From NCBI GenBank assembly GCA_021827495.1, contig JAKAVN010000014.1:1-41616 (forward strand): a stretch of DNA of 41,616 bases. Direction: 5' to 3'. The notes under the pieces were generated by a model. The model searched no databases. It worked only from the letters and a program-made list of their open reading frames with translations, and was not told the origin of the DNA. The DNA comes from Deltaproteobacteria bacterium. GTDB lineage: Bacteria; Desulfobacterota; Binatia; Binatales; Binataceae. Below, in pieces: positions 17,776 through 31,902 of the stretch (position 1 is its first letter; every line of letters begins with the position of its first letter). Position numbers and translations under genes: made by a program.

Positions 17776-18024
17776 CTACTCGATGTCGTCCTGGCTGGGC
17801 GGCGGCGAACTCTGGCTGGGCGGCGGCGAACTGTTGGGTGGCTTAGCCTGGCTGGATTGGTGATGGCCCGACTCGTACTTGTAGCCCTGGTAGGCGAGAC
17901 TCGGAACCGCAAGCCACAGGCAGCCGCTGCATCCCGCGCTCATCGCCAATAGCGCCACCGCCGCCGCCAACCGCGCCGCCACCGACCTCCATCCATCTTT
18001 ACGCTTGCCACCTTGGTATTTCAT
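17776..18024 (-). CDS. small lipoprotein, paralogue A
   Basis: An 82-residue lipoprotein starting MKYQGGKRKDGW, with a hydrophobic segment and lipobox AMSAGC around residue 32. A short LWLAVPSLAYQGYKYESG region and a Ser/Pro/Gln-rich tail containing a repeated SPPPSQ follow. It is a paralogue of the lipoprotein at 20391-20633: the first ten residues and the DNA around both starts are nearly the same. The start ATG overlaps the stop of a four-codon leader ORF (MKYR). It is divergent from the FadH-like gene at 18217. Function unknown; the Gly/Ser-rich unordered tail suggests an envelope-anchored short protein. Confidence 0.6.
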   Translation of the reverse strand: MKYQGGKRKDGWRSVAARLAAAVALLAMSAGCSGCLWLAVPSLAYQGYKYESGHHQSSQAKPPNSSPPPSQSSPPPSQDDIE

Positions 18025-18035
18025 CGGTATTTCAT
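18021..18035 (-). CDS. four-codon leader minigene (MKYR-stop) overlapping lipoprotein A
   Basis: Sequence ATGAAATACCGATGAAATACC: the first ATG opens ATG-AAA-TAC-CGA-TGA, and its TGA overlaps the ATG of the lipoprotein gene (ATGA). A purine-rich AGAGGGGAGCCAGG lies upstream of the first ATG, so ribosomes would load here and re-initiate at the second. The arrangement recurs at 20630-20644. It may equally be a duplicated start, with only one used. Confidence 0.35.
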   Translation of the reverse strand: MKYR

Positions 18036-18216
18036 CCTGGCTCCCCTCTTGGCAAGGCCACCATCAAAAAGTCGCAAGAACCCTGCATGGCCACGCCCTG
18101 CTGCTTGAGTTGCGCCCGAGAAGAGACGTATGTTCTGAGCGCTTGGGCCCGGAGTAGTACGCAGCGATTTAAGACGCGCAAGACCCGACGGCTCAGTTTG
18201 CGGACGGAGGTATATC

Positions 18217-20172
18217 ATGGCGGGCCAGTTTCAGTACCTTTTCAGCCCCATCCAGATCGGTCCGGTCAAGATTCGCAACCGCATCTTCTCGCCGCCCTAC
18301 GAGACCAATTTGGTCGAGGATGAGGCGCGCGGCTGGTGGGACCGCCTGGCGCATTACCATGCCGAGCGGGCCAAGGGCGGAATCGGCCTGATCGTGATGT
18401 CCGATATCTGCGCCCATCAGGCCGCAGTAGTATATACGATGACGCCGATCGACGACCGCCACACGCCCCATCTGCGCAAGGTCACCGACATGGTTCACGC
18501 GCACGGGGCGAAAATCTTTCAGCTTATCCACAACCCGGGACGGCAAGCGCAGCCAATGTGGTCGCATCATGCCAACTGGGGCCCCTCGCCGATCCGCGGC
18601 CCTTTCAACGTCGAAATCCCGCACGAGATGGACCAGGACGACATCCGCGAGATGGTGGCTGGCTATGCGCGCACCGCGCGGATTATCAAGGAGGCGGGCT
18701 TCGATGGTATCGAGCTGCAAGGGTCGCACGGCTTCATGATCGGCAGTTTTCTGTCGCCGGCCAGCAACAAGCGCAGCGATGAATACGGCGGATCGCTTGA
18801 GAATCGCATGCGTTTTCTCAACCAAATCCTCGAAGGGATACGCGAACAGGTCGGGCGCGACCTGGCGCTGGGCGCAAGCATCAGCGTCGACGAGCTGAAC
18901 CCTAACGGGCTGAACATCGAAGGAACCCAGGAGATCGCGGCCCGGCTCGATTCAGGCGGCATGGTCGATTACCTCAATACTCGCATCGGTGATTATGCGG
19001 CGGTCCCCATCTGGATCGGTGACATGAGCGTAGCGCCGGGTGCGGCGGTGCCCTATGCGGCGGCCATCAAGCGTGTGGTCAAGATGCCGGTGGCGACCGT
19101 GCTGAGGATCAAGGATCCACTGCACGCCGAGCAAATCCTGGCCGACGGAGCGGCGGACATGATTGGGATGGGGCGGGCGACCCTGTGCGACCCCGAACTT
19201 GCGCGCAAGGCCGAAACCGGCCGCCTGGAGGAGATTCGCCTTTGCATTTCGTGCAACCAGGGCTGCATCAGGCGCGTGCAGATGGGGCTTACCATCGAGT
19301 GCGTGCTCAACCCGGTGGCCGGCCTGGAGCGCCAGTACGGGACCGGCAAGATCAACCCCGCCGCGCGCAGGAAACGGGTGGTGGTGGTGGGCGGTGGCCC
19401 CGCGGGGCTCAAGGCGGCCGAGACTCTGGCGCTGCGCCAGCATAAGGTTATTCTGCTCGAGCGCGAGGCTGAGCTGGGCGGCCAGATTCTGCTTGCGGGG
19501 CGGCTGCCGGGCCGCGAAGAGATAACCGAATCGGTTTCCCACCTGGCCGGCCAGATTCGCCGCCTGGGCGTGGAGACGCATCTAAAGGTCGCCGCAACAC
19601 CCGAGAAAATCAAGGAGTTAGCCCCCGATGCGGTCATCCTGGCGACCGGCTCGGCCCCACTGGCGCCGAAGATTCCAGGCATGAACGGCTTCCCAATCTA
19701 TCACGCGATACAGGTGATCAAGCGCGAGGTCGAGCCGGGCAAGAACGTGCTGGTCTACGATTGCGGAGAAAGTCACTGGAAGTTCTGCGGCACCGCCGAG
19801 CTGCTCGCCCAGCAGGGCCGGAAGGTAACGGTCGTCACGCCGCGGCTATTTCTCGGCTTCGGCATCCCGCCGACCGCGGTGCCAGGCGTCTACGAACGGC
19901 TGGCGGAACACGACGCCACAGTGATCGAGCATACGGCGCTAGTGCGCATCGATAAGGGCGCGGTCGTCCTGATGGACGTTTTCTCGCACAAGGAGAGGGT
20001 GCTCGCCGGGATCGATACGGTGGTATGGGTGGGCGACGACCACGTGGTCAACGACCTTCACGGCGTGCTCAAGGGCACCGTGCCGGAAGTCTACGCCGTG
20101 GGCGACTGCGTGGCCCCGCGTAAAATCGACGCCGCCATACGCGAAGGATTTTTCACGGCCCTGAAAGTTTGA
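18217..20172 (+). CDS. FadH-like NADH:flavin oxidoreductase (Old Yellow Enzyme plus FAD/NAD domain)
   Basis: A 651-residue enzyme of the 2,4-dienoyl-CoA reductase/trimethylamine dehydrogenase/BaiC group. The N-terminal TIM barrel binds FMN (LFSPIQIGPVKIRNRIFSPP; active-site region GSHGFMIGSFLSP). A 4Fe-4S site with all four cysteines follows (CISCNQGC and a fourth Cys 11 residues on, before VLNP). The C-terminal part binds FAD and NAD(P)H (VVVVGGGPAGLKAAETL; YAVGDCVAPRKIDAAIREG). Such enzymes reduce activated C=C bonds or demethylate amines; the substrate is not evident. GGAGGT lies 6 bases before the ATG. A second, diverged copy is at 28627-30618, and the tail of a third is fossilised at 26931-27032. 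Confidence 0.9.
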   Translation: MAGQFQYLFSPIQIGPVKIRNRIFSPPYETNLVEDEARGWWDRLAHYHAERAKGGIGLIVMSDICAHQAAVVYTMTPIDDRHTPHLRKVTDMVHAHGAKIFQLIHNPGRQAQPMWSHHANWGPSPIRGPFNVEIPHEMDQDDIREMVAGYARTARIIKEAGFDGIELQGSHGFMIGSFLSPASNKRSDEYGGSLENRMRFLNQILEGIREQVGRDLALGASISVDELNPNGLNIEGTQEIAARLDSGGMVDYLNTRIGDYAAVPIWIGDMSVAPGAAVPYAAAIKRVVKMPVATVLRIKDPLHAEQILADGAADMIGMGRATLCDPELARKAETGRLEEIRLCISCNQGCIRRVQMGLTIECVLNPVAGLERQYGTGKINPAARRKRVVVVGGGPAGLKAAETLALRQHKVILLEREAELGGQILLAGRLPGREEITESVSHLAGQIRRLGVETHLKVAATPEKIKELAPDAVILATGSAPLAPKIPGMNGFPIYHAIQVIKREVEPGKNVLVYDCGESHWKFCGTAELLAQQGRKVTVVTPRLFLGFGIPPTAVPGVYERLAEHDATVIEHTALVRIDKGAVVLMDVFSHKERVLAGIDTVVWVGDDHVVNDLHGVLKGTVPEVYAVGDCVAPRKIDAAIREGFFTALKV

Positions 20173-20390
20173 GCGCGCGGCGGCGTTGCGCTCGGGCAGA
20201 CTAGTGACCTGCAGTGAGCACCACCAGAGTGCGCCGGCGACCTTTTACGATCGGGTCGGTGAGCCCGGCGAAGCTCTGATCTATGCCCAACGCCTCCATG
20301 AATTAAGGCCCGGAAATCCACCCGTGCGGTAGCTACGCAACCGCTAAACGACGAGTCGCAAGGGCTACCGGCTGGCCCCCAACCGACCAC

Positions 20391-20633
20391 CTATGGAGTA
20401 CGGCCCTGGCCCTGCGGCTGCGTGCCGCTTTGTTGCTTGTTCTGATTGGCCTGGTCGTTCGCGGGCTCGGCCGGCTGGCTATCGGAGGGCTGCTGATATG
20501 TGGTGCTGGGGCCGGCCATCGCCGGAATCACGGTGTACAAACATCCACCGCACAGCGCCGCCGCCAACAGCGCCGCTCCCGCGACCGCCATCGACATCCA
20601 TCGATCCTTACGCCTGCCACCTTGGTATTTCAT
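20391..20633 (-). CDS. small lipoprotein, paralogue B
   Basis: An 80-residue lipoprotein, MKYQGGRRKDRW, with a hydrophobic segment and lipobox AALCGGC near residue 30, then YTVIPAMAGPSTTYQ and a Gln/Pro/Asn-rich tail. It shares the start region, size and layout with paralogue A at 17776-18024, but the tails have diverged freely. It lies downstream of lpxD on the same strand and could be read from the same transcript. A GTG-started copy of the MKYR leader overlaps its start. Function unknown. Confidence 0.6.
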   Translation of the reverse strand: MKYQGGRRKDRWMSMAVAGAALLAAALCGGCLYTVIPAMAGPSTTYQQPSDSQPAEPANDQANQNKQQSGTQPQGQGRTP

Positions 20634-20644
20634 CGGTATTTCAC
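20630..20644 (-). CDS. four-codon leader minigene (GTG start, MKYR-stop) overlapping lipoprotein B
   Basis: GTG-AAA-TAC-CGA-TGA, with the TGA overlapping the ATG of lipoprotein B, preceded by AAGGGGCGCCAGG. It has the same layout as 18021-18035. The first start differs (GTG against ATG) while the four codons and the overlap are kept, which argues mildly for selection. The two copies may simply be a recent duplication. Confidence 0.33.
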   Translation of the reverse strand: MKYR

Positions 20645-20720
20645 CCTGGCGCCCCTTTTCGCAAGGCCAACATTTGCACGTCCAAAACGTGTCACCGCCG
20701 AGACCCGTCCCCTTCGCCGC

Positions 20721-21749
20721 TCAGCGCCGCTCGTCCGCGGCGCGCAGTCCCAGACGCTGCTCGATCGCGCGCAAGCGCCGCATCGCCGCCGGCAGCCGCG
20801 GCACGATCGCGGCCATCCGCCGCCAGGTGCGCACGTCGACCGCTGGCGTGCCGCCGACAGTGGCGTCGTCGGCGAGATCGTGCGGGATTCCCGACTGCGC
20901 GACCACGCGCACGCGATCGCCGATTTGCGCGTGGTCGGCCACTCCGGCCTGTCCGCCGAACTGGCACCAGCGGCCCACCTTGACCGAGCCCGAGAGGCCC
21001 ACCTGCGCGGAGAAGCGCGAGTATTCGCCCACCTCGCAGTTGTGGCCAATATGCACGTGGTTGTCGAGCTTGGCGCCGCGCCGGATCAAGGTCGCGCCCA
21101 TCGTGGCGCGATCGATAGTGGCCAGCGCGCCGATCTCCACATCGTCCTCGATCGCGACCGCGCCGACCTGCGGAATCCTGACCAGGGAGCCCGCGTGCTC
21201 GATGAAACCGAAGCCTTCGGCGCCAATCACCGCACCGTTGAGAATCGTCACGCGGTCGCCAATCGTTACGTGCTCGCGAATCGACACGCCGCTGTGGCAG
21301 ACCAAACCGTCGCCGGCGCGCACACCGGGATAGATCGTGACGTGGGGATGGATGACCGCGCCGCGGCCGATCTCCACCCCCGCGCCGATCACGCAGTAGG
21401 CGCCCACCGAGGCGCCCTCGCCCAGTTTCGCGCCGGGCGCGATGCGTGCGGTCGGATCGATCCCGCCGGGCGGCCGATACGGCGGAAAGAAAATCTCCAG
21501 CACGCGGGCGAAGTCGGCGTAAGGGTTGTCGCTTACCAGCACCGCGCAGGGCGCGTCCGCGGCAAACTCGGCGGGCACGATGGCGCAGGCGGCGGCGGTG
21601 GTGCGCAGCGCTTCGAGGTACTTGGCCGCGGCGACGAAGATAATCGTCCCCGCCGCGGCGGCCTCCAGCGGGGCCGGCGCGCTTATTTCGATCTCGCCGC
21701 TGCCGCGCAGCGGCAAGTCAAGCCGGGATGCGAGTTCCTTGAGTTTCAT
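20721..21749 (-). CDS. lpxD: UDP-3-O-(3-hydroxyacyl)glucosamine N-acyltransferase LpxD
   Basis: A 342-residue enzyme of the Raetz pathway that adds the N-linked hydroxyacyl chain to UDP-3-acyl-glucosamine in the cytosol. The N-terminal uridine-binding domain starts MKLKELASRLDLPL. Then comes a long left-handed beta-helix of hexapeptide repeats, with the catalytic-His region DNHVHIGHN and the segment EGFGFI.....VRIPQVG characteristic of LpxD. The C-terminal helix is WRRMAAIVPRLPAAMRRL. Length is normal. It lies between waaF-like upstream and lipoprotein B downstream on the same strand, an envelope cluster. Other lpx genes are not in the window. Confidence 0.93.
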   Translation of the reverse strand: MKLKELASRLDLPLRGSGEIEISAPAPLEAAAAGTIIFVAAAKYLEALRTTAAACAIVPAEFAADAPCAVLVSDNPYADFARVLEIFFPPYRPPGGIDPTARIAPGAKLGEGASVGAYCVIGAGVEIGRGAVIHPHVTIYPGVRAGDGLVCHSGVSIREHVTIGDRVTILNGAVIGAEGFGFIEHAGSLVRIPQVGAVAIEDDVEIGALATIDRATMGATLIRRGAKLDNHVHIGHNCEVGEYSRFSAQVGLSGSVKVGRWCQFGGQAGVADHAQIGDRVRVVAQSGIPHDLADDATVGGTPAVDVRTWRRMAAIVPRLPAAMRRLRAIEQRLGLRAADERR

Positions 21750-26930: not shown

Positions 26931-27032
26931 TTAGATTCTGCGGGCGGTGAAAAATCCTTCGCGGATCGCAGCGTCTATCTTGCGCGGGGCCACGCAGTCG
27001 TCGGTTGAGTAAATCCTGGGCGCGGCCCCCAT
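26931..27032 (-). pseudogene. C-terminal remnant of a FadH-like oxidoreductase
   Basis: The minus-strand frame ends DDCVAPRKIDAAIREGFF plus TARRI and a stop. This is nearly identical to the tail of the intact enzyme at 18217-20172 (GDCVAPRKIDAAIREGFF). The DNA is also clearly alike over about 60 bases. Upstream of the motif the similarity fades within a few residues. Nothing else of the enzyme is left. It lies just before the ntrC-type gene. Confidence 0.75.
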
Positions 27033-28505: not shown

Positions 28506-28613
28506 TAGCGAAAAGCCGGGAGGTTCAGCGCGCACGCGACCCGCGAGCCGGTCTCGTTGACCACCCGTTCGTCGCTGAGCTTTTCGCCGGGCCACAGCTG
28601 AGCGGCCCTGCGC
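28506..28613 (-). pseudogene. internally deleted remnant of an LLM-class flavoenzyme
   Basis: 72 bases (28526-28597) match 31052-31123, inside the intact LLM gene, with 3 mismatches by eye (PGEKLSDERVVNETGSRVAC). They are joined by 6 bases to a 14-base piece matching the end of that gene (CCGGCTTTTCGCTA, stop included). About 345 bases in between are missing. The result is a short frame ending ALNLPAFR and a stop. It cannot encode a flavin-binding enzyme. The high identity suggests recent duplication. Confidence 0.8.
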
Positions 28614-28626
28614 AGTCAGTCCGGCC

Positions 28627-30618
28627 TTACAGGCTTCGGGCGAGGCGGTGTCCCTCGAAAATCGCCGCGCCAATGTCGCGCGGCGCCACGCAATCGCCGA
28701 TCGCGTACAGTCCGTTGACCTTGCCCTTCATCTCGGCGGACAGGGCACTCCTGGTCTCCTTGGTCGTGACCAGGATGACGCTATCGATGCCGTCGAGACT
28801 GGTCTCAACCTGCGGCGCGTACACGTTGAAGAGTTGAACCAAGCTTCCGTTGATTTTCTTGATATAGTGAGTGGGCAGGACTTCCACGCCACTCTCGGCC
28901 AGCCGGGCCAGCACGTGAGGCAGGACCAGTGTGAGAACCAGGTCCCTTCCCACGGATGGTTGGCTGGTTACGAGAGTCACTTTCTTGCCCTGCCGGGCCA
29001 ACAGCTCGGCCAGGCCTGGAGCCACCTGATTGTATTCCTCGTCGACAATCAGGACCCTGTGCCCCGGCTGCTTCTCTCCGCGCAGCACTTGTTCCGGCGT
29101 AAGCACGTGCGGCTGATCCCATCCCGGGATGGGATCGGGGATGACGCCCGAAAACCCGGTCCGATTGAATTCAGCGCCGGTAGCGATCACCAGCGCGTCG
29201 GGAGCCAGCCGACCGATCAGCTCTGGCGTCACCTCGCAGCCGAGATTCACCTCGACGCCGCATTTCGGCATCTGCCGGATGAGCCAGCCCGCGACCTCGC
29301 CGATTTCTTCGCGCCCGGGCAAGAGTGCAGCGAGATTCACCTGGCCGCCCAGCTCTTTGGCTCTTTCGTACAGCGTCACGTTATGTCCGCGCAGCGCCGC
29401 CACCCGCGCGGCCTCCAATCCCGCAGGACCGCCTCCCACCACCATCACACGCTTTTTCTTGGAGGCCTTGGTCAGCGTGCCGATGCCCCATTCTTTCTCC
29501 CTTCCGGTTGCAGGATTCTGAATGCATCCGATCGGCAGGCTGCCGAAGAGGCGAGCTATGCACTGCTGATTGGTGTAGGTGCAGTGGCGGATATCTTCGG
29601 CGCGGCCCTGCTGCACCTTCAAGAGCCATTCGGGATCGGCAATCAGCGCGCGCGCGACTCCAACCATGTCGGCCTGACCGTCGGCGAGCATCCGCTCGGC
29701 ATCCTGAGGGGTCCCGAGCCTGCCGGGAGCGCATAGCAGTGGCAGTTTCTTGAGCGCGGCCTTGATCGGAGCGGCGGCCAGAAGATTGTAATGCGGGGCG
29801 ACGTACATCGGCCCGATACCGATGTGGTAGTTGTGATAGCTGCCGACATCGATATCGATGAAATCCAACTGGCCCGTTTCTTCCAGTCTTCTGGCGATTG
29901 CCGTGCTCTCTTCAACGCCAAGCCCGCCAGGCAAGAGCTCCTCTCCCACCAGCCGCAGCCCCAAGGCCAGCTTTCTTCCTATGACTCCCCGTACCCGCTC
30001 GATGACCTGGAACAGGAAGCGCATCCGGTTATCCAGCAAGCCGCCGTATTCGTCGTGGCGCTTATTGAAGAACGGGGACAGAAAATTCTCGATCAGATAG
30101 CCGTGCGTGCCGTGCAGTACGATCCCGTCGTAGCCCGCTTCCGGCACGACGGCGGCGCTGTCGGCGAAGGCCTGGACCATTTCTTCGATCTCTTCGTGGT
30201 CCATTTCCTTGGGCGTGGTGAACGAATTGGGAACCGGTGAAGGCGCCAACGCCGGCCGGCCGGTGAGGAAGCAACTGGAGGCCTGCCCGGCGTGCCAGAT
30301 CTGGATGAACATCTTGGCCCCGTGCCGGTGAACTCTGCTGGTGACGTCCTTTAGCAGAGGAATGACCCGCTTGTCGTACAAACGCATCGTAGGCAGAGTT
30401 CCGTACTCGACTGTCGGATGGATATCGGCGACCGACTGGCAAATCAGTCCGACGCCGCTCTTGGCCCGCTCCTCGTAATAGTACGGCATCTGCGCATTGG
30501 GTAGCCACGTCTGGCGGTCTACATATACAGTGTAGTGCGGCGACATATAGAACCGATTCTTGATGTGCACCGGCCCCAGGTCGATTGGAGTGAAAAGATG
30601 ACGAAACTCATTAGCCAC
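28627..30618 (-). CDS. FadH-like NADH:flavin oxidoreductase with one Fe-S cysteine replaced
   Basis: A 663-residue enzyme with the FMN TIM barrel (LFTPIDLGPVHIKNRFYMSP; active site HGTHGYLIENFLSP), Fe-S segment, and FAD/NAD domains (VMVVGGGPAGLEAARVA; YAIGDCVAPRDIGAAIFEG). The cluster segment reads HCTYTNQQC with the fourth Cys 11 residues later (GCIQNP), so the second ligand Cys of CxxCxxxC is Thr. The relative at 18217 keeps all four. This could mean a 3Fe-4S cluster, a fourth ligand from elsewhere, or no cluster. The start is GTG (GTGGCTAATGAG) with an upstream GGGAG. It follows the LLM gene by 73 bases on the same strand and is likely co-transcribed. Substrate unknown. Confidence 0.9.
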   Translation of the reverse strand: MANEFRHLFTPIDLGPVHIKNRFYMSPHYTVYVDRQTWLPNAQMPYYYEERAKSGVGLICQSVADIHPTVEYGTLPTMRLYDKRVIPLLKDVTSRVHRHGAKMFIQIWHAGQASSCFLTGRPALAPSPVPNSFTTPKEMDHEEIEEMVQAFADSAAVVPEAGYDGIVLHGTHGYLIENFLSPFFNKRHDEYGGLLDNRMRFLFQVIERVRGVIGRKLALGLRLVGEELLPGGLGVEESTAIARRLEETGQLDFIDIDVGSYHNYHIGIGPMYVAPHYNLLAAAPIKAALKKLPLLCAPGRLGTPQDAERMLADGQADMVGVARALIADPEWLLKVQQGRAEDIRHCTYTNQQCIARLFGSLPIGCIQNPATGREKEWGIGTLTKASKKKRVMVVGGGPAGLEAARVAALRGHNVTLYERAKELGGQVNLAALLPGREEIGEVAGWLIRQMPKCGVEVNLGCEVTPELIGRLAPDALVIATGAEFNRTGFSGVIPDPIPGWDQPHVLTPEQVLRGEKQPGHRVLIVDEEYNQVAPGLAELLARQGKKVTLVTSQPSVGRDLVLTLVLPHVLARLAESGVEVLPTHYIKKINGSLVQLFNVYAPQVETSLDGIDSVILVTTKETRSALSAEMKGKVNGLYAIGDCVAPRDIGAAIFEGHRLARSL

Positions 30619-30691: not shown

Positions 30692-31774
30692 TTAGCGAAA
30701 AGCCGGCATGACCATCTCGGCGACGTCGCGGAATACCTTGCGCTGGTAATCGGCCGGCGGCAGCAAGGCGACTTCCTTGATCCCGGCCTGCTCCAGCGCG
30801 CGCAAGCGATGGATGACCTCCTCGGGCGTTCCCACGATGCAGACGTTCGCGATCGCCTCGGGCGTCATGAAGCGCCGCTCCTCGGGCTGCAGGAACGTGC
30901 AATGGCCTTCGTGGATTTGCCGGAAGCGCGCGGTCTCGGGCAGGCTGAAATTCTTCACCCGCTTGACGTAATCGTCCCAGATGTTGGCGAAGAACCGCGG
31001 TATCAATTCGTCCTTTTCGCCGCGCTGCTTCCAGATCTCCCAGGTGAAGTGCAGCGCGCACGCGACCTGCGAGCCGGTCTCGTTGATCACCCGTTCGTCG
31101 CTGAGCTTTTCGCCGGGCCGCAGCACGCACGCGGTGGTCAGGCAGCTGGTTAAAAAGTCCGGGCCGATTGTGCGCCCGGCTTCCTTCGCGCCGGCCTCGA
31201 CCGCCTGCATCGAGCGGCGGAAACCCTCGGCGCCGCCGGTCAGCGTGATCCATCCGTCGCCGTATGCGCCGGTCGCACGCAGCGCCTGGGGTCCATTGGC
31301 CGCGACGTAGATCGGGATGGGCTGGTCGAGGTTGATGAAGTAGCGATCGCGATGGAGAAATTTTATCTGGCGCGTCTTGCCGGCATAGGTGTATTCGACT
31401 TCCTTGCCCTCGAGCAGCGCGCGCACCACCCGCAGGTATTCGCGAAACTCGCGCGGCGGCATCGGCTCCTGCCCCATCACGCGCATCGCGGTATGGCCGG
31501 TGCCGATGCCGAGGAAGACGCGCCCGGGCGCGAGCTGGGCGATGCTGGCGATGGAGTGCGCGGTGACCGGAGCGATCCGGGTGCCGGGAATCGCCACCCC
31601 GGTGCCGATCCTGATGCGCCTGGTGTTGAACGCCGCCAGCGCCAGCGTGGCGTAGCAGTCCGACCAGATCATCTGCGAATCGGGAACCCAGGCGGTATCG
31701 TAGCCAAGCTCCTCGGCGTAGCGCACCAGTTCCCACTTGTCGATGTGCGTGTCGAACATGATCCCGAATTTCAT
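30692..31774 (-). CDS. LLM-class flavin-dependent oxidoreductase (F420 or FMN)
   Basis: A 360-residue bacterial-luciferase-like TIM-barrel enzyme. ATG 31774 was chosen over the longer ORF: AGAGGTG precedes it and it opens MKFGIMFDTHIDKWELVRYAEELG as in the family. The core has IRIGTGVAIPGTRIAPVTAHSIASI, GRVFLGIGTGHTAMRVMG and PIYVAANGPQALRATG with YGDGWIT. F420-dependent methylene-H4MPT-reductase relatives and FMN monooxygenases share these motifs, so the cofactor is undecided. It sits upstream of the FadH-like gene, forming a two-flavoenzyme cassette. A near-identical fragment lies at 28506-28613. Confidence 0.88.
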   Translation of the reverse strand: MKFGIMFDTHIDKWELVRYAEELGYDTAWVPDSQMIWSDCYATLALAAFNTRRIRIGTGVAIPGTRIAPVTAHSIASIAQLAPGRVFLGIGTGHTAMRVMGQEPMPPREFREYLRVVRALLEGKEVEYTYAGKTRQIKFLHRDRYFINLDQPIPIYVAANGPQALRATGAYGDGWITLTGGAEGFRRSMQAVEAGAKEAGRTIGPDFLTSCLTTACVLRPGEKLSDERVINETGSQVACALHFTWEIWKQRGEKDELIPRFFANIWDDYVKRVKNFSLPETARFRQIHEGHCTFLQPEERRFMTPEAIANVCIVGTPEEVIHRLRALEQAGIKEVALLPPADYQRKVFRDVAEMVMPAFR

Positions 31775-31902
31775 TGAGGCACCTCTTTTTGTGAGATCGG
31801 CTCCGTGGCCTGCCGGGACGAAGCCTAACGAAGCCTTATGTACAATCTTTCGGCGCGCGAGCATACCCCGCAGCGCAGGCGGGGCGCCGGATAGCAGGAC
31901 GC

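Follow-up and report, generated by a model that had tools for sequence, protein, structure and literature searches.

The four-codon leader at two paralogous lipoprotein genes of a Binataceae genome is probably a by-product of slippage and copying

The 4-nt ATGA overlap of a stop with the following start codon is well documented as a means of coupling gene pairs (Huber et al. 2019, PMC6728339); for leader ORFs, a role in raising expression through re-initiation has been proposed (Korolev et al. 2016, PMC4833913). Both systems resemble what is found in the window, that is, the whole 41,616-nt stretch analysed (contig JAKAVN010000014.1 of assembly GCA_021827495.1, family Binataceae), in which each of two small lipoprotein genes, A and B, is preceded by a leader ORF of four codons. 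As with the leaders of PMC4833913, the ORF is short, carries its own ribosome-binding site, lies before a structural gene and would be expected to feed ribosomes to it; that survey counted leaders without gene overlap, with a distance peak at 10-11 bp, whereas at A and B there is a 4-nt stop/start overlap, and the leader copies the first codons of the gene. As in the pairs of PMC6728339, a 4-nt stop/start overlap would couple the translation of two ORFs, but both partners there are real genes, while the upstream partner here consists of four codons without other visible role.

The original prediction described at A and B a leader reading MKYR-stop, whose TGA overlaps the lipoprotein ATG and which has a ribosome-binding site in front, and it placed the two copies on either side of a FadH-like flavoenzyme gene on the opposite strand. 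This layout and its coordinates were confirmed (Table 1), with the ATGA overlaps located at 18021-18024 (A) and 20630-20633 (B), both on the minus strand. By sequence, the two small lipoproteins are paralogues, and the shared first residues are real, the N-termini being near-identical (MKYQGGKRKD in A and MKYQGGRRKD in B); however, the likeness is that of a sharply bounded 89-nt DNA block, not of the first residues alone.

Table 1. Positions of the lipoprotein genes, their leaders and neighbouring features in the window
Feature	Position	Strand	Description	Basis
Lipoprotein A	17776-18024	-	82 aa, ancestral A-type, motif GC.WLA[IV]PSLAYQGYKYE	sequence, family alignment
Start block R, copy at A	17976-18064	-	89 nt	alignment of A vs B regions
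11-nt tandem duplication at A	18015-18036	-	(GATGAAATACC)x2, leader and start of A	TRF, 100%
Leader ORF A	18021-18035	-	ATG-AAA-TAC-CGA-TGA (MKYR-stop)	sequence
Shine-Dalgarno-like site of A	18041-18049	-	AGAGGGGAG; 5 nt before leader A, 16 nt before A start	-8.2 kcal/mol, assuming the standard anti-SD
OYE/FadH-like flavoenzyme, between B and A	18217-20172	+		nearest NCBIfam TIGR03997 mycofact_OYE_2, below cut-off
Lipoprotein B	20391-20633	-	80 aa, diverged paralogue; clear counterpart in G001 only	
Start block R, copy at B	20585-20673	-	89 nt, 89% identical to A copy	
11-nt tandem duplication at B	20624-20645	-	(GGTGAAATACC)(GATGAAATACC), leader and start of B	pattern search
Leader ORF B	20630-20644	-	GTG-AAA-TAC-CGA-TGA (MKYR-stop)	sequence
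Shine-Dalgarno-like site of B	20650-20658	-	AAAGGGGCG; 5 nt before leader B, 16 nt before B start	-7.0 kcal/mol, assuming the standard anti-SD
lpxD	20721-21749	-	upstream neighbour of the lipoprotein genes	

Inspection of the start regions found that leader and gene start together form an 11-nt tandem repeat, which for both genes can be written in one formula, (GRTGAAATACC)(GATGAAATACC), the leader being the first unit of the gene's own doubled start. The leader's MKY therefore repeats that of the gene, being read from a copy that is offset by 11 nt, i.e. by two frame positions, and because of this repeat the common MKY is not independent. When one 11-mer was deleted in silico, an ordinary start with a Shine-Dalgarno (SD) spacing of 5 nt was restored. 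In the same-genus genome G001, the B start reads GGGAG-GTACA-ATGAAA, with the same spacing as the leader's GGGAG-CCAGG-ATGAAA here; this short likeness suggests that the leader ATG could be the old start. A perfect 26-nt tandem duplication was also observed in the lipoprotein start region of G006 (Centralia_MAG_59; L044, 5901-5953), an independent case of doubling at such a site.

The 89-nt block begins 29 nt ahead of the leader and reaches about codon 16 of the lipoprotein, and its two copies match with E = 4e-27, while identity beyond its sharp edges falls to background (7/30 upstream and 8/30 downstream). The likeness of A and B is far above chance because the copies are duplicates, and both genes have a leader because one block was copied between them. 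Only these two copies occur in the genome; none was found in the 40 other family genomes, the best other match among all 41 being a 27-nt stretch (E 0.04). Likewise, the 22-nt start motif, with three mismatches allowed, occurs twice in this genome and in 0/56 relatives. As the block copies are 89% identical, compared with 65% for the third codon positions of lpxD between this genome and G001, the block was copied after the two lineages split. A sharply bounded repeat lying partly outside the coding frame could also be a structured regulatory RNA or a small mobile repeat; this we regard as extremely improbable, given that Rfam searches at gathering and relaxed thresholds returned no relevant match for the block, that its RNA folds no better than shuffles (z -0.15 and -0.66), that the predicted folds differ between the copies, and that the genome holds only two of them.

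Ten substitutions separate the block copies. Five fall in shared lipoprotein codons, four of which change the residue (read by hand from the alignment), and one falls in the leader, at its start codon (ATG vs GTG). The original prediction took this last change as a sign that the layout persists despite change; it is one of ten substitutions that show no sign of sparing the leader, in a single lineage-specific duplication. In simulations with ten random substitutions, 44% of trials left the leader layout intact; among the trials that kept the main start, the share was 58%. Since the leader would stay intact this often by chance, given a kept main start, its persistence is no evidence of selection.

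A selected MKYR-stop, kept at both genes and setting lipoprotein translation via re-initiation, would agree with the intact layout in both copies, with a leader start changed only from ATG to GTG, with the SD spacing, which favours the leader, and with the overlap by which some relatives couple the lipoprotein to lpxD. Against it, beyond the chance expectation above, stands its distribution. The A-type lipoprotein is present in 27 of the 41 Binataceae genomes including this one (26/40 others; one, G058, is weak), and 20 of those 26 have a same-strand lpxD upstream of it, usually as its immediate neighbour. The MKYR leader is absent from the 56 relatives searched, from the aligned family lipoprotein starts and from all other genus and family genomes examined, so that relatives keep the lipoproteins without the leader, contrary to its supposed conservation. 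Moreover, mini-ORFs that touch the lipoprotein start and are unrelated in sequence occur in 7/21 relatives, compared with 4.1 in shuffles of the upstream bases, which indicates that such ORFs are common background. A selected leader is therefore very unlikely in our judgement.

Within the genus, the comparison comprises two genomes, G001 and G002, and the persistence time of the leader is thus coarse. G001 has the order lpxD-B-A with a B-A gap of 31 nt, starts ATGAAAGGCCGC and GTGAATACCCCG, neither leader nor flavoenzyme between B and A, and the only clear counterpart of B. In G002 the order is lpxD-A, and A's ATG overlaps the TGA of lpxD (ATGA). The latter arrangement permits a more speculative history, which we hold to be improbable: the gene would have moved off a coupling lpxD stop, duplication of its own start would have rebuilt an ATGA-coupled start, and the module would then have passed to the paralogue separated by the flavoenzyme. 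If true, rebuilding a start from within would allow a leader cistron to arise by a single mutational step.

Comparison of gene orders indicates that the flavoenzyme is a lineage-specific insertion between B and A, because G001 is without it and, at E up to 1e-100, its only counterpart elsewhere in the family lies in G014 (67% identical), where the match covers the coding region alone and the neighbours differ. No convincing pair of terminal repeats marking it as part of a transposon was found in the region. Since the metagenome assembly comprises 264 contigs, the window being one of them, and wrong joins occur at repeats, the doubled block and the flavoenzyme might in principle stem from such a join; an artefact of this kind is highly improbable, since the gene order of G001 and G002 is kept on both outer sides (lpxD on the one, NCSC-type and TolC-like genes on the other) and the two block copies differ at ten sites.

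Elsewhere in the window, a second OYE/FadH-like gene (28627-30618, minus strand) lies between a luciferase-like (LLM) oxidoreductase gene (30692-31864, minus strand) and a decayed LLM fragment, which matches that gene over 79 nt at 94% (28508-28598 vs 31046-31124) and looks as if it were the remains of an old tandem copy. At 26942-27000, 59 nt remain of the 3' end of an OYE gene; they are 88% identical to positions 20103-20161 of the flavoenzyme, on the opposite strand.

Turning to translation at present, two features of termination-reinitiation were found at A and B, namely the ATGA overlap and a ribosome-binding site positioned for the upstream ORF, although the SD match of B is moderate. 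The part of the original prediction that proposed a re-initiation leader is thereby consistent with the sequence, while conservation of the leader, or its retention by selection, is not supported. Since the spacing of the ribosome-binding site suits the leader rather than the lipoprotein ATG, coupled re-initiation is likely how A and B start. A consensus scan found no Sigma-70 promoter in front of A. Alternatively, the leader could be inert: ribosomes would then start on the lipoprotein ATG itself, and the ATG/GTG before it would be a slippage footprint. The lipoprotein start, ATG followed by AAA, is a common strong start, and a weak SD-like match does lie 3-11 nt before it (-5.6 and -3.9 kcal/mol, on the same anti-SD assumption as in Table 1); the stronger site is, however, 16 nt from this ATG and 5 nt from the leader start, and we consider direct initiation unlikely.

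Taken together, the leader probably arose as a by-product of two mutations specific to this lineage, rather than being a conserved regulatory leader. For the order of events, we infer that slippage duplicated 11 nt of the start region (GATGAAATACC), which would have placed a second ATG 11 nt downstream, leaving the first ATG with the ribosome-binding site but out of frame, so that its reading would end after MKYR at the TGA within the second ATG. In the lineage that received the flavoenzyme, the 89-nt block with the doubled start would then have been copied between the paralogues, B being the probable donor and A the recipient. Ribosomes would now bind at the leader-spaced site and translate MKYR; after termination at ATGA they would start again on the lipoprotein ATG, by which the gene would still work. 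The leader is thus best read as a recent replication accident tolerated by the gene.

As for the lipoproteins themselves, neither A nor B matches a Pfam or NCBIfam family above cut-off. In a 23-sequence alignment of the A-type lipoprotein, judged by eye, a near-invariant GC ends the hydrophobic stretch and supplies the lipobox cysteine; the conserved motif (Table 1) follows, and then a variable tail, which in A contains a perfect 21-nt tandem repeat (17791-17832) encoding repeated SSPPPSQ. The A-type family as a whole is likewise without a Pfam or NCBIfam family. LptM (PMC10567701), likewise a very small lipoprotein, is similar in that a short conserved stretch follows directly on the lipid cysteine while the tail varies; as an LPS-assembly lipoprotein, it invites comparison with A, which usually adjoins an LPS gene, lpxD. 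In contrast to LptM, the A-type family has another conserved motif, its function is putative, and none of the 23 members matched PF13627 (LptM) at E up to 0.1. The A-type family may serve LPS or outer-membrane assembly.

These findings show how slippage that doubles a start region can create, in a single event, a correctly spaced leader ORF that has an ATGA overlap; once copied, such a leader looks conserved. Because slippage followed by copying mimics conservation, two copies in one genome are weak evidence for a leader. They also place an unnamed small lipoprotein family beside lpxD in Binataceae.
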